Below, in pieces: positions 6,667 to 15,461 of a DNA stretch of 37,992 nucleotides; position 1 is the first letter of the stretch; each line of letters begins with the position of its first letter. The notes under the pieces are model-generated. The model was not told the origin of the DNA. It was given only the letters and a program-made list of their open reading frames with translations, and ran no database searches. The stretch lies in the NCBI GenBank assembly GCA_028695935.1, contig JAQVHY010000009.1, positions 1 to 37,992 of the forward strand, in the 5' to 3' direction. The position numbers were made by a program, and so were the translations under genes. This DNA is from Desulfobacca sp. Lineage in GTDB: Bacteria > Desulfobacterota > Desulfobaccia > Desulfobaccales > Desulfobaccaceae.

Positions 6667-7062
6667 ATGGCCAAAGCAGGACGCGGGGGAGCAAAACGGA
6701 AGAAGGAAAAGAAAAATATTCCGGTGGGCATTGCCCATATCCAATCTTCCTTTAATAATACGATTGTCACCATTACGGACCCGGCGGGTAACGTGGTGTC
6801 CTGGTCTTCTTCAGGGGTGCAAGGTTTTAAAGGCTCCCGCAAAGGCACGCCGTTTGCGGCCCAATTAGCCGCGGCCGACGCCGCCAAGAAGGCCATGGAA
6901 AATGGCATGCGCACCATTGATGTCTATGTTAAAGGCCCGGGTTCGGGTCGGGAGGCCGCGCTGCGGGCTCTGCAGGTGGCTGGGTTTACCATTAACCTAA
7001 TCCGGGATGTCACCCCCATCCCCCATAATGGCTGTCGGCCACCCAAACGCCGCCGGGTTTAA
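6667..7062 (+). CDS. rpsK: 30S ribosomal protein S11
   Basis: A 131-residue S11 with a basic N-terminal tail, the core [28 protein letters not shown] split over residues 19-46, the [13 protein letters not shown] loop and the C-terminal [16 protein letters not shown]. It forms part of the 30S platform near the E site. The ATG follows AAGGAGGAAGG, a near-perfect ribosome binding site. Confidence 0.98.
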
Positions 7063-11821: not shown

Positions 11822-12313
11822 TATTTAACCCATCTAATGTTACCTAAATTGTAATGCTTCAAGCCTGACCAGGCAACCTCGGCATCAAAGCATAATATCT
11901 TCGGACAAATGACTATCTTGAAGAGCTCCGGTCAAAAGGTTAAGTGCTCTAGTCAGATCATAGCTCTTCAGTCTTGGCAAGATATAATCTATCCCATGTG
12001 GCTTATTTGTTAAGATATATTTCTTGAGTGTATGCAATGGATTTAAATTTTTTCTCCATGTTGACACTGCCGTTATGAACCATTTGTTTAAGAGGAATAT
12101 CACGCCTGATGGTCCTATCCAGGCTTACTGCCCCCTGTTTCAGGTAAGGGCCCTTAACCTGAGATAAAAGAATTACCCGGTGACCCAACGCGATAGACAA
12201 CTTTTTGGCATACGCCCAAAACCTGGTCCGATATCGGATCCGGATGCAGTTATAATGCACCCAGCCTATTTATAGTTTTCCGCTTTTGGCAACTGACTTA
12301 AGACACCGTAGAA
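11822..12313. other. Gene-poor, AT-rich stretch with broken coding fragments on the minus strand
   Basis: No intact gene is recognisable in these 492 bases. On the - strand two overlapping open stretches (12260-12003 and 12103-11885) in different frames read as one sentence if a frameshift near 12005-12060 is allowed. They join a segment containing AKKLSIALGHRVILLSQVKG to one containing GIDYILPRLKSYDLTRALN. This looks like a decayed gene of unknown family. There is no clear terminator after the CorC-like gene. Confidence 0.35.
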
Positions 12314-12562
12314 TCATTGTCCGCCTTTGTGAGAACGGGGGTCCGGACCAGTCCTGCCGGTAATCAGGATGCTCTTTGCAGGGCCAATAGGGAGGTTCTT
12401 CTGGCAGCGGCTGCAGAGGTAATCCTTTCCCTTGATGTCCTGTAATGATATGGTATCAAGGAAACCCCGCATCAGATTAATGTGCTCCCCGACGTTCAGG
12501 CAATCCAAGCAAACGGTCTCTTCATCGAATAGGACTCCCACCACTGATTTCTTGGCTTCCAT
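12314..12562 (-). CDS. Small protein with two CxxC pairs (zinc-ribbon-like), unknown function
   Basis: Unrecognised 82-residue protein. It has two CxxC pairs, C18-x2-C21 and C50-x2-C53, spaced 28 residues apart, as in small zinc-ribbon or redox proteins. The basic tail ends RTGPDPRSHKGGQ. AGGAAG lies a few bases before the ATG at 12562, a plausible ribosome binding site. It is 168 bases downstream of the selenoprotein cluster on the same strand and might be its last member. The spacer contains hairpins (CTCCAT with ATGGAG; GGGGTT with AACCCC) that may separate transcription. Confidence 0.5.
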   Translation of the reverse strand: MEAKKSVVGVLFDEETVCLDCLNVGEHINLMRGFLDTISLQDIKGKDYLCSRCQKNLPIGPAKSILITGRTGPDPRSHKGGQ

Positions 12563-12730
12563 TTGTTAATCTTCCTGGTTCATGAGTTGGTTAGCCTCTA
12601 TAAATCTGGTTATGAATAACCCCCGATTAGGAGCACCTTCCCTGAGCCTCCTTTCTGATATTGAGCAAAGGGGTTAATTCTCCATGATAAAATGGAGTAT
12701 TTTAAATCTTCAAACCCCGACGGGAACCTG

Positions 12731-13042
12731 CTAGAAAGTTATCACCTTATTAGCCTCGGCCATCAATTCATACAAATCGTCCATCCAACCTATGGGGCAG
12801 CTGCTTGATCCCTCCAGACCGTGGGATTTCATGCAAACCCCTCAGACAAAAAAATCTCCCTCGAACTGATTGATTTGCCCCATAACATCAAAATGCTCGT
12901 TTCCTGCCTGTTCAAATAGAACGCCCTTTCCGAGCATAAAGACGCTGACCTCATCTCCTTTTTTGACACCGACGTTTGCCAGTCGCATGGCATTGAAGAT
13001 GGTTTCGCCGTCGTCTGTGGTAATGATAAACAAGACTTTCAT
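12731..13042 (-). CDS. DsrE-family selenoprotein (in-frame TGA read as Sec67)
   Basis: The full 103-residue frame runs from ATG 13042 to TAG 12731 with one internal TGA at 12844-12842. The N-terminal part is a typical DsrE/DsrF-like fold (MKVLFIITTDDGETIFNAMR; VSVFMLGKGV). The TGA falls where this family has its reactive cysteine, giving V-U-G-V-C-M-K, a U-x-x-C motif (U67, C70). The frame continues normally to the C-terminus (WMDDLYELMAEANKVITF), which argues against simple decay. DsrE-like proteins relay sulfur in persulfide form and are a previously reported bacterial selenoprotein family. It lies 13 bases after the thioredoxin-like selenoprotein gene and is probably in the same operon. 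Confidence 0.82.
12794..12841 (-). promoter_or_regulatory. SECIS-like hairpin of the DsrE-like selenoprotein
   Basis: Directly after the TGA (12844-12842), ATCCC pairs with GGGAT (plus-strand 12808-12827), enclosing a loop with GGTCT. An alternative inner pairing is CCA with TGG around CGGTC. An outer GGGG/CCCC pair (12838-12841 with 12794-12797) may extend it. The GGT falls at +25 to +27 from the T of TGA, the same register as in the two neighbouring genes. Bacterial SECIS elements sit just 3' of the Sec codon, and the E. coli fdhF loop likewise contains GGUCU. Confidence 0.6.
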
Positions 13043-13055
13043 TTTTTTGACCCCA

Positions 13056-13310
13056 TTACAGTTTCTGAGACAAAAAGCTCTCCATTTTGCTCTTATCCGT
13101 TGCTACATCAAGGGGCACCCAATCGTTTTGAAAAAGGACGTTGGTCGAACTCTTAAACGTGTAACCTTTCGCCTCTTCCGAATCCAAGGTATAAATCTTT
13201 ACGTCCAGCTTATCTCCGAATTTTTCCTTCATGTCATGGGCTACACCTATAGCCTTTCTGCATGACATTCAGCCAGGATTGCCACTGTGAAAAACGATCA
13301 GTTCGGGCAT
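13056..13310 (-). CDS. Thioredoxin-fold selenoprotein with UMSC motif (in-frame TGA read as Sec14)
   Basis: The 84-residue frame from ATG 13310, behind an excellent GAGGAGGAA ribosome binding site, runs to TAA 13056 with a TGA at codon 14. It reads MPELIVFHSGNPG-U-MSC-RKAIG, that is a first beta strand, then U-x-x-C at the head of helix 1, exactly where thioredoxin- and glutaredoxin-like proteins have CxxC. After it come VAHDMKEKFGDKLDVKIYTLDS and a C-terminal half ending MESFLSQKL. The good ribosome binding site lies only upstream of the TGA, so the shorter frame from the ATG at 13268 is unlikely to be the gene. It is probably a selenium-dependent thiol oxidoreductase. The next gene, 13 bases on, is the DsrE-like selenoprotein, a possible partner. 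Confidence 0.85.
13231..13268 (-). promoter_or_regulatory. SECIS hairpin of the thioredoxin-like selenoprotein
   Basis: Beginning at the base after the TGA (13271-13269), ATGTCATG pairs perfectly with CATGACAT (8 bp; plus-strand 13261-13268 and 13231-13238). Inside, after a CAGAAA bulge, GGCTA pairs with TAGCC (5 bp) around the apical loop TAGGTG. The GGT lies at +25 to +27 from the TGA. This is the clearest of the three SECIS candidates. Confidence 0.8.
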
Positions 13311-13394
13311 GTTAGATTCCTCCTCACAGCCATAGGGGTTAATGTTTATCCTCAATACACATTGTTCCTTGCATGGTTGCCATTTCCGGTGGCT

Positions 13395-13895
13395 CTAGTA
13401 ATTTTCTTGCCGCGGTGATTTCTTGATATCTATTAATCCTTGAGCGGATAGCTTTCCTTCCCTTCCCAGCTTGGAAAGCAGAAAAGTCGCGCCTCGGCAG
13501 GATAGGCCGAGACTCTCAGCCAGCGCCTTGTCATCCAACGGGCCGCGTGCCTTCAAAAGCTCAAGCACCTCTGCTTCCAGTTCTTCCAACCAATCCTCAA
13601 ACAGCGCCAGCAGGTCGGGGTCTGTGATTGCCGAGAGTTGCTCGGATTGGGCCACCTTGGCCACTAAGCCTCGGCACATCTGCGTTGGGTCGACACCTTC
13701 GCCCATGCACTCAGCCAGTCACAAATGCACTAAACTGGATACCTTATCGCCTTCGGACTGTCCGATCAGATTCATCAGAAAGCGCTCGCGCGCTTCGTTA
13801 TCAAGGTCCGTCAGAAGTCTTGCCAGGACCGTGGTGATTTTCGATAGGGCCTCCTCTGGGGCCATGCGGAAAACGATTTCAAAAAAATCATCCAT
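13395..13895 (-). CDS. Putative new selenoprotein, winged-helix-like (in-frame TGA read as Sec59)
   Basis: The frame runs from ATG 13895 to TAA 13395, 166 residues, with one internal TGA at 13721-13719. I do not recognise the family. The first 58 residues (MDDFFEIVFRMAPEEALSKI, then TTVLARLLTDLDNEARERFL) look all-helical. They lead into SSLVHL-U-LAECMGEG, a U-x3-C motif (U59, C63), with another Cys at 74. The last 50 residues (LELLKARGPLDDKALAESLG, then LLSKLGREGKLSAQ) resemble a winged-helix domain. Coding character is the same on both sides of the TGA, and a SECIS-like hairpin follows in the shared register. A GGAGG lies about 12 bases before the ATG. The gene starts 24 bases after the ArsR gene ends. 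It could be a selenium/thiol-sensing regulator or adaptor of the neighbouring redox proteins; this is inference. A nonsense mutation is the alternative. Confidence 0.7.
13686..13705 (-). promoter_or_regulatory. SECIS-like hairpin of the third selenoprotein
   Basis: TGGGCGA (+17 to +23 from the TGA) pairs with TCG-A-CCCA (+29 to +36, one bulged A), a 7-bp stem with apical loop AGGTG. The GGT falls at +25 to +27, the same as in the two downstream genes. The stem is compact and continuous, as expected of a bacterial SECIS upper helix. Confidence 0.7.
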
Positions 13896-13918
13896 GGGGT
13901 AGGATTGCCTCCGTTGCC

Positions 13919-14323
13919 TTAAAAGGTCTTTCTCGCCGACAAGAGATCCGTGGCCACCCCGCTCAACGTTCGTATCACGTCCAATATTCTCGCATCTGAC
14001 AGTTCATAGTAAATAAATGGTCCCTGGCGCTCCACCTTGACCAACAGGGAACGCTTCAACTCCTTCAAATGATGTGACACCAGCGGTTGCGACAGCTCCA
14101 ATTCCTCGACGATGGCGGAAACCGATTTTTTCCCACCGCTGATGAATAGCAGTATTCTCAGGCGGTTGCTGTCTGACAGACTCTTGGCTAGAAAGGCGGT
14201 GCTGTGCAGACGATCATTATCCAGCCGGCATTGCACCATAAATCCATTGTTGCGCCCGACCGCATCCGGTAAAATCCGATTTTGCTCTTCCGGCGACACT
14301 TGCTTTTCGGTATTACCCACCAT
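13919..14323 (-). CDS. ArsR-family transcriptional regulator
   Basis: A 134-residue winged-helix repressor. After a non-conserved N-terminal tail of about 40 residues come AKSLSDSNRLRILLFISGGK, the recognition helix region ELELSQPLVSHHLKELKRSL and the wing VERQGPFIYYELSD. The metal-site motif ELCVCDL of ArsR proper is absent; only one cysteine (C32) is present, so classic arsenic sensing is unlikely. The sequence before ATG 14323 lacks a clear ribosome binding site, so translation may depend on the upstream trxB remnant ending at 14342. A 22-base palindrome in the cluster promoter is a good operator candidate. Confidence 0.9.
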   Translation of the reverse strand: MVGNTEKQVSPEEQNRILPDAVGRNNGFMVQCRLDNDRLHSTAFLAKSLSDSNRLRILLFISGGKKSVSAIVEELELSQPLVSHHLKELKRSLLVKVERQGPFIYYELSDARILDVIRTLSGVATDLLSARKTF

Positions 14324-14341
14324 TCGACACTTTGCGGAATT

Positions 14342-14910
14342 CTAGCTTTTTACCTTGACCGTGCCCCAGTCGACCACCTGGCCAGCCTGGCCGCCTTTCT
14401 GGGCCTCGACATAATGCGCCGCGGCTAAGGCCGCGGTGCACCCATCCGCCGCGGCGAGGACAATCTGGTTGGCATACTTTTGCCGAAGATCGCCCAAGTC
14501 GCACAGTAGGAAACTCCCATGCCGAAATTCTCATTCTCTCCGGGAATATTAAGCTTTCGGGCGGTGCCGCCGGTCGCCAGAATGATCGCCTGGGCTTTCA
14601 AAATGGTGCCGTCGGAGAAACGCACTGCATGGTATCCAATTCCAGGCTCGGTTGCGATGGCCTCTTGTTCTACAATTTCTAACTGATACCATTTGGCGTG
14701 CTGGAGGAACTTATCACCCAGATCCAGACCCCCGATCTTGATGAAGCCAGGGTAGTTCTCCACTTCCTTGGTAACCGCCACTTGGCCGCCGGGGAAGCCC
14801 TTTTCGATCAGCAGGGTCTTAAGCGCCGCTCGCATCGCGTAGATCCCCGCGGTCAAGCCCGCAGGTCCGCCGCCCACAATGATCAAATCGTAAACTTCGT
14901 TTCCGGACAC
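14342..14910 (-). pseudogene. trxB: Thioredoxin reductase-like gene with internal deletion and frameshift
   Basis: The N-terminal 130-odd residues are a good TrxB FAD domain: LIIVGGGPAGLTAGIYAMRA, PGGQVAVTKEVENYPGF, and AIILATGGTARKLNIPG up to GVSYCAT. The frame then switches. In another frame the TrxB C-terminus follows at once (DLRQKYANQIVLAAADGCTA, then HYVEAQ) and ends with TAG at 14342. The NADPH domain, about 130 residues, and the second Cys of the CATC active site are missing. The junction reads GCGACTTGGGC, and GCGACTTG would also be expected in the lost CATC codons, so a microhomology deletion is likely. An assembly collapse is the alternative. As it stands the open frame ends in an unrelated tail at 14425. 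Confidence 0.85.
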
Positions 14911-14986
14911 GCTATTCTCCGTTTAGTTCACTGGCCTAATGTTGTTTAGGGTTGGCGTCGAACTTTATACCACCAAGCTTAATAGC

Positions 14987-15026
14987 ATATATAAATCCAT
15001 TTATATATTAATATATTTTTTGTCAA
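14987..15026 (-). promoter_or_regulatory. Promoter and perfect 22-base palindromic operator of the ArsR/selenoprotein cluster
   Basis: On the - strand TTGACA (15026-15021) is followed after 15 to 17 bases by TATAAA or TAAATG. The proposed -10 lies inside a perfect inverted repeat: ATATATAAAT (14987-14996), CC, ATTTATATAT (14999-15008). AT-rich 10-2-10 palindromes overlapping the promoter are typical ArsR-family operators. The leader of about 75 bases runs to the trxB remnant at 14910. Confidence 0.6.
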
Positions 15027-15461
15027 CAGAATTTTTTCCGGGAGCCGGAAAATACTCTGAAAAGACCTCCAAGGGTTGTGATCATGAGTGTCAAACCCAA
15101 ATTCAGCCTGCAACCAGATACGCCTTTGCGGAAAAATGGACTAAAGCTATCATCTAACTAATCTATACCCAAGGTTTTTAGTTCTGGTCTTTATCTAATA
15201 CTTTATAATCACAAAAAATTATTTGATATGGGTGTCATAGCTGCATCCAAGATCATGACGACCTTTAATACTTTTGTTCCCAGTCTCAGGTCTTCTCTGA
15301 TTTGATGTTGATGATGGTCAACTCAAGTCTTGGTTATTACACCTAAATCGCTGTCCCCAGACATTCTCCATAGCTTTTCCAGATCAACATCGGTTATATT
15401 AAATTGCCATTTTGGCTAGCTGGCAATCCCTGGTAACTTAGGACAATCGGCAGGCTCTACT
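15009..15461. other. AT-rich spacer without a gene between the selenoprotein cluster promoter and lnt
   Basis: Apart from the -35 element at 15021-15026, I see no gene, tRNA or clear terminator in these 453 bases. A short open stretch starting at ATG 15084 (MSVKPKFSLQPDTPLRKNG) ends after about 25 codons and has no good ribosome binding site. Base composition differs from the GC-richer lnt that follows, in line with an insertion between corC and lnt. Confidence 0.4.

Follow-up and report, generated by a model that had tools for sequence, protein, structure and literature searches.

Introduction

Regulators of the BigR type, members of the ArsR family, act in sulfane-sulfur regulation and are among the described systems with which the locus considered here, an ArsR-headed operon of three selenoprotein genes in Desulfobacca sp., can be compared. 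The operon lies in a stretch of 37,992 nucleotides (nt), the window (assembly GCA_028695935.1, contig JAQVHY010000009.1), of a 3.17 Mb genome in 201 contigs (G000; 99.3% complete, 2.6% contamination). Its regulator, TsoR, resembles BigR in the ArsR fold, in a predicted AT-rich palindromic operator and in sulfur-linked target genes, but reaches only 41 bits against the BigR NCBIfam cut-off of 155 and lacks the conserved Cys pair.

By its family scores, the operon is of a kind already known, namely the Tso ('three selenoprotein operon') families of Haft and Tolstoy (2025, mSystems 10:e0141724), taken here from the review PMC13188914 and from NCBIfam. Window and system have in common TsoR, TsoA, TsoX, adjacent selenoprotein genes and the occurrence in Desulfobacterota; they differ in that the genome of the window has neither TsoB nor TsoC over the cut-off, and in that a DsrE protein with selenocysteine (Sec) follows TsoX. 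A DsrE-like selenoprotein (PF02635, UxxC), listed in a table of the same review, shares fold family and active-site UxxC with the copy of the window, which differs in being tied to a Tso operon. The Sec-assisted organometallic (SAO) operon, also found there, likewise combines several selenoproteins, with thioredoxin-like and DsrE-like members, but its families are not those of the window (SaoT 15.3 bits, cut-off 65; SaoD 12.4 bits, cut-off 169).

We read the locus, with what we judge to be an even chance of being right, as a reduced, horizontally acquired form of the Tso operon, the 'DsrE type', that would work as a sulfane-sulfur selenol relay. In the literature searched no function was found for the Tso system, and neither the DsrE type, nor the exclusion of TsoB by DsrE, nor the operator described below was found in print; the primary Tso paper lies outside the literature covered, and priority is not claimed.

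Three selenoproteins behind tsoR

Family calls were made with the curated cut-offs of NCBIfam and, for PF02635, with the Pfam gathering score (table 1). Behind tsoR stand three selenoprotein genes in a row, tsoA, tsoX and dsrE, of which the second and third are not those of the standard operon. TsoA (NF045695) contains the LULAxC motif with Sec, as LULAEC, and TsoX (NF045809) the HSGNPxU motif, as HSGNPGU; TsoR (NF045707) also shows the adjacency expected of it, with 23 nt to tsoA. The third selenoprotein passes the gathering score of PF02635 and falls far under the cut-offs of YedF (19.7 of 110 bits) and, as given above, of SaoD; a sulfur-carrier activity at its UxxC site is predicted from the family. 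A preliminary description of the window had placed these genes on one strand with gaps of 13-84 bases, which the coordinates of the open reading frames (ORFs) confirm: the trxB remnant, the ArsR gene, the three UGA-containing ORFs and a double-CxxC ORF are all on the minus strand, and the stop-to-next-start gaps from the trxB remnant through the DsrE ORF are 18, 23, 84 and 13 nt. It had also regarded three adjacent selenoprotein genes lacking Sec machinery as rare, a view that does not hold, the operon type being published and tRNA-Sec (79.3 bits, cut-off 47) and SelB (384.8 bits, cut-off 242) being encoded elsewhere in the genome, outside the window.

Translation table 11 breaks all three frames, as would be expected if the UGA codons were ordinary stops or sequencing errors and the ORFs pseudogenes, an explanation that comparison refutes and to which we assign a negligible probability. 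With TsoA as query, 80 loci were obtained from 111 relatives; together with the window they make 81, and in 80 of these UGA stands at the one site of tsoA. The hairpin behind it is formed by the codons GGC GAA GGT GTC GAC, each of which is the same in 78-79 of 80 sequences, and degenerate codons nearby vary freely (for example, GAA 40 and GAG 39 for Glu). For TsoX, UGA is found in 12 of 13 rows, the other being the fragment L046 with TGC, and the hairpin is paired in 12/12, one pair exchanging U-A and C-G (6 and 6). For DsrE, all 14 rows that cover the site have UGA (two fragments do not cover it), Cys takes its place in the distant homologues of L177, L182 and L183, and a hairpin with a CGGU or GGGU loop is largely preserved, each pair being found in 11-14 of 14 sequences. 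The hairpins show covariation and constraint at synonymous sites, the genome has SelB and tRNA-Sec, and the proteins match curated selenoprotein families; the comparison indicates that the three ORFs are genuine selenoproteins.

As evidence for the Sec insertion sequence (SECIS), synonymous constraint and pairing were used, since counts of hairpins with G were, for TsoA, little above those of control stretches (56/80 against 297/559). Folding energy as the sole evidence was dropped, being useful for TsoX only (z -3.8 in the window) and unremarkable for TsoA (z 0.39) and DsrE (z -0.35).

Two observations on TsoA and its relatives may be added. The one locus without UGA, L039, has AGA at the Sec site, and the second copy in the same metagenome-assembled genome, L036, has UGA. 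In L129 (2883-3269, minus), L130 (2803-3156, plus) and L131 (2237-2590, plus), TsoA-like proteins of about 118 residues contain an in-frame UGA (..VERUMQMCEQM..), with an ArsR-like gene about 1 kb away; those of L130 and L131 reach 58-59 bits (cut-off 170) and have a GGU-loop hairpin after the UGA. They are possibly an undescribed selenoprotein family.

TsoB and DsrE on a common core

Standard Tso loci read tsoR-tsoA-tsoB-tsoC. The constant part is the first pair: in 77 of 81 loci tsoR immediately precedes tsoA, and in three of the other four the contig breaks off at this point. What follows the pair varies. In the class of the window itself, TsoB is present in 13 of 14 class-mate loci; in L116 the contig ends soon after tsoA. 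In L012, TsoB is a rhodanese, DsbD and thioredoxin fusion (981 and 968.9 bits, cut-off 805) and TsoC reaches 146 bits (cut-off 45). In the genome of the window no TsoB match passes the cut-off of 805 bits (the best has 74.4), and a search for TsoC, the NEPxGxxU protein, gave no match there and none in any control genome. The locus is, consequently, not a Tso operon in the strict sense (A+B+C). A weak TsoA match in G002, of the same family, was taken for a remnant and rejected as such: the contig stops within tsoA of an otherwise ordinary tsoA-tsoB-tsoC operon.

Three other loci, L009, L158 and L169, repeat the order tsoR-tsoA-tsoX-dsrE, L009 with a J-domain gene between tsoA and tsoX, and tsoR-tsoA-dsrE lacking tsoX is found, for example, in L017, L028, L034, L040 and L165; DsrE also partners more distant TsoA loci (L177-L179, L182, L183). 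The earlier reading of the genes as one unit is thereby borne out. In a first set, made up of the 65 loci with 3.2 kb or more of downstream DNA, 40 have TsoB only, 11 DsrE only, none both and 14 neither (Fisher p 5e-6, phylogeny being left aside), and in an enlarged set of 103 distinct loci, from which six duplicates had been removed, the numbers are 64, 19, 0 and 20. The separation extends to whole genomes: TsoB was found over the cut-off in none of 12 DsrE-type genomes (TsoB control 968.9 bits), and DsrE at E<=1e-8 in none of 38 TsoB-type genomes, with three of four positive controls recovered. On the tree, the TsoB, DsrE and neither states interleave, with 23 changes. Once corrected for phylogeny the exclusion is not significant, and it is therefore best described as a strong and suggestive pattern that falls short of proof, from which we infer that DsrE and TsoB may be alternative sulfur modules on one TsoR-TsoA core.

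Genes for TauE and for an SQR-like flavoprotein, both of sulfur-linked families, flank TsoB-less loci. The latter gene was seen downstream in 10 of the 81 loci, none of which has TsoB (L056, L057, L059, L069, L072, L073, L077, L078, L082 and L086), and the two proteins tested against NF049943 have 95-99 bits (cut-off 525).

A predicted TsoR operator

In 65 of 73 loci, the palindrome CATATAAAT-N4-ATTTATATG, or a close form of it, is found upstream at 15 or more of 18 letters, against 0.8% in local shuffles. The consensus was read from these same 73 loci; among 36 further loci, 21 reach a score of at least 15/18, with 0.6% expected from shuffles. In all loci that yielded a site together with an intact trxB (L012, L016, L017, L019), the palindrome precedes trxB, as it does, at 14-15 letters, in L118 and L119; in loci without intact trxB it precedes tsoR. 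This position marks trxB-tsoR-tsoA-... as one unit, and fits the earlier proposal that the ArsR protein controls the whole of it. We regard the palindrome as the predicted TsoR operator, and autoregulation of TsoR is predicted with it.

The site of the window is alone in its genome in matching ATATAAATNNATTTATAT perfectly, so that TsoR looks like a dedicated regulator. A wider TsoR regulon was considered and rejected, sites with two mismatches being no more frequent than those of the reversed control pattern. A promoter and terminator scan gave sites no more frequent than in shuffles, by which separate promoters and internal terminators are neither shown nor excluded.

Insertion, loss and selection

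The gap between corC and lnt measures 3640 nt in the window, against 142 nt in G005 and about 216 nt in G006, both of the same genus (identity of G005 to the flanks of the window: corC 92%, lnt 93%); hence about 3.5 kb have been inserted. The guanine-plus-cytosine (GC) content of the block is 0.478, against 0.480-0.583 in 111 equally long stretches of the flanks, and a search for end repeats of the insertion gave nothing convincing. The tree places TsoR and TsoA of the window in a set of 24 loci, well supported (96), that contains no locus of its own class; the nearest, L009, is titled Desulfobacteraceae. Mis-binning is unlikely, as ribosomal protein genes lie on the same contig and the sequence on either side of the block matches the relative. 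Tree and gap comparison point to horizontal acquisition of the operon.

Two passengers have been broken in the window, trxB and the J-domain gene (intact in L009, PF00226 44.2 bits, cut-off 27.8). The preliminary description had taken trxB for a remnant, and two pieces in different frames are indeed found: in comparison with L012 and L017 exactly 413 nt are missing, with a shift of frame, and the second active-site Cys and the NADPH domain have gone with them. Against TIGR01292 (300 positions, cut-off 343) the pieces score 134 bits (positions 1-133) and 19.5 bits (positions 272-300), so that this is not a full-length thioredoxin reductase. Intact trxB lies directly upstream of tsoR in five of the 73 loci with at least 900 nt upstream (L012, L016, L017, L019, L020) and in the class-mates L118 and L119; remnants are seen in L009, L029, L032, L035 and L049 besides the window, those of L032 and L035 being weak calls (E about 0.01 and 0.002). 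trxB would then have belonged to the unit from the start, and could be dispensed with where the cell has another reductase. The gene order was expected to recur with an intact trxB, which it does in part: L017 has trxB-tsoR-tsoA-dsrE, and none of the loci examined showed all five genes in the exact order with trxB intact.

Do these losses announce the end of the remaining genes? It might be that the block is a decaying transferred fragment, from which trxB, the J-domain gene, TsoB and TsoC have been lost, the operator spacer has changed and the rest is on its way out; the 413-nt deletion, the J-domain remnant, the failure to find TsoB and TsoC in the genome, the spacer of 2 nt, the recent date of the insertion and a stop inside tsoX of L009 all fit. 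Yet the four remaining genes are open apart from UGA, and the ratio of nonsynonymous to synonymous substitution (dN/dS) between the window and its nearest relatives, pairwise and partly saturated, is 0.03-0.17 for tsoR, tsoA, tsoX and dsrE where computable, which indicates that these genes are under purifying selection. The SECIS pairs are kept, the branch that leads to the window is of usual length (0.15, against a median of 0.16), and the same four-gene order stands in L158 and L169, tree-distant from the window. Decay is, in our estimation, improbable.

Feature coordinates

Table 1. Positions in the window of the inserted block, the genes, the UGA codons and the predicted signals.
Feature	Position	Strand	Basis or remark
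Inserted block between corC and lnt, limits approximate	11835..15381	.	corC-lnt gap comparison and GC
TTGACA, -35-like, adjoins operator	15021..15026	minus	by eye; no complete promoter here in consensus scan
Predicted TsoR operator TATATAAAT-GG-ATTTATATA, 2-nt spacer	14988..15007	minus	
trxB remnant	14342..14910	minus	N-terminal piece 14910-14497; C-terminal piece 14497-14342 in other frame
tsoR, ArsR/SmtB-type regulator	13919..14323	minus	NF045707 165.6 bits, cut-off 115
tsoA selenoprotein (U59, C63, C74; winged-helix-like C-terminus)	13395..13895	minus	NF045695 206.4 bits, cut-off 170
tsoA Sec UGA codon	13719..13721	minus	residue 59
tsoA SECIS hairpin, AGGUG loop	13686..13705	minus	synonymous constraint and pairing
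J-domain gene remnant, first ~25 codons	13362..13437	minus	DNA alignment to L009, gene intact there
tsoX, thioredoxin-like selenoprotein (U14-x2-C17)	13056..13310	minus	NF045809 145.2 bits, cut-off 52
tsoX Sec UGA codon	13269..13271	minus	residue 14
tsoX SECIS hairpin GGCUAU-AGGU-GUAGCC	13239..13254	minus	pairing and folding energy
dsrE-type selenoprotein gene (U67-x2-C70)	12731..13042	minus	PF02635 38.3 bits, cut-off 22.7
dsrE Sec UGA codon	12842..12844	minus	residue 67, FVUGVC
dsrE putative SECIS hairpin AUCCC-ACGGUCUGGA-GGGAU	12808..12827	minus	pairing; weak by energy alone
82-aa double-CxxC ORF	12314..12562	minus	probably not part of system

The double-CxxC ORF follows the operon, as had been described, starting 168 nt after the DsrE ORF, and is probably not part of the Tso system: it matches no NCBIfam family and no Pfam entry over cut-off, and no relative was found in 80 Tso loci, viral contigs or plasmids, whole genomes not having been searched. 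This orphan ORF arrived with the inserted block or sits within it.

Proposed mechanism and meaning

In the mechanism that we propose for the DsrE type, TsoR would act as a repressor at the palindrome that precedes trxB or tsoR, and a rise of polysulfide or persulfide, or of chemically similar selenium or thiol-reactive species, would lead to derepression. The chromosomal TrxB would reduce TsoX, the selenol thioredoxin-like protein, which in turn would reduce the DsrE selenol or load it, and DsrE would carry sulfur as a selenylsulfide. In standard operons TsoB, a rhodanese joined to a DsbD electron conduit and also with Sec, would do the sulfur transfer. The redox circuit drawn in the preliminary description, from the local reductase to the selenol thioredoxin and the selenol DsrE, thus retains its conserved gene unit and loses its first member: the local trxB is dead, and electrons would have to come from the product of the intact copy at G000:C136 (383.6 bits, cut-off 343).

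Several points weigh against this reading. Substrate, inducer and electron path are all inferred from families, and the operator of the window has a spacer of 2 nt, compared with 4 nt in 64 of 68 sites scoring at least 14, which may weaken it. The partial saturation of the pairwise dN/dS values has been mentioned, and TAG replaces a Trp codon in tsoX (7021-7023) of L009, the closest among the loci of this build. As to the exclusion, the tree offers few independent pairs, 6 on well-supported branches and 13 on all branches, and their sign test, which such numbers leave unable to reach 0.05, has a median p of 0.125; 20 of the 103 loci hold neither protein; the DsrE search missed the control G010, so that a divergent DsrE would escape it; and a DsbD-like, partial match to TsoB reaches 541 bits (cut-off 805) in G015, a genome of the DsrE type.

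A different function, the handling of a soft metal or metalloid (As, Hg, Cu or Se), with TsoR sensing the metal and TsoA binding it via its selenol and thiols, would agree with the NCBIfam name of TsoR, a metalloregulator, with the three chalcogen residues U59, C63 and C74 that TsoA keeps, and with the Met-rich, distant, U-less TsoA-like proteins that lie beside ArsR genes (L186-L190). It is hard to reconcile with TsoR itself, in which, as the preliminary description had rightly noted for the ArsR protein of the window, the conserved Cys metal-binding motif of arsenic-type ArsR proteins is absent: no column among 76 sequences has a conserved Cys, the most frequent Cys column (33 of 76) is Phe in the window, and the one pair of nearly invariant His residues (75 and 73 of 76) lies within the recognition helix. 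Moreover, no efflux pump, arsenate reductase or methyltransferase was recognized in the conserved Tso neighbourhood, and the partners are of sulfur families (rhodanese, DsrE, TauE, SQR-like). We therefore hold metal handling to be unlikely, and prefer the sulfane-sulfur relay.

What TsoA does is less easily read from its family. No TsoA was found on plasmids, and Foldseek with its structure model (mean predicted local distance difference test score, pLDDT, 69.7) gave no match at E<=0.001 (best E 0.2); with a pLDDT of about 50 in the Sec region, nothing is claimed on the geometry of the site. In the model, the C-terminus looks like a winged helix, with VIA Z values of up to 7.8 over 56 residues (root mean square deviation 2.0), Z values that, as the tool warns, are commonly seen, and distant TsoA-like proteins pass the Pfam cut-offs of HTH_24 (22.6, cut-off 21.9) and FeoC (21.5, cut-off 21); TsoA itself passes none. 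The U-C-C set together with such a domain suggests sensing or binding, not catalysis. In L186-L190, the TsoA-like proteins have no Sec at the site, several are Met-rich N-terminally, and each stands behind an ArsR gene.

Joint sensing by TsoR and TsoA is conceivable, because the two genes form a constant pair and ArsR genes also accompany the Sec-less TsoA-like proteins. The pair might then be a split redox regulator, in which TsoR, its ligand residues lost, reads the DNA and TsoA responds via U59-C63-C74 to reactive sulfur, selenium or a soft metal and acts through its winged-helix-like C-terminus, with alternative sulfur modules plugged on (TsoB-TsoC, TsoC with the SQR-like flavoprotein, or TsoX-DsrE). 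We give this idea an even slighter chance than metal handling or decay; if true, it would be the first regulator using selenocysteine to sense.

For the sulfane-sulfur relay, the swap of a Sec rhodanese-DsbD fusion for a Sec DsrE on the TsoR-TsoA core points to sulfane-sulfur transfer as the task of the operon, and the conserved palindrome offers a direct handle for finding the inducer. The window itself would illustrate that the Tso operon is able to move between families and to be pared down.

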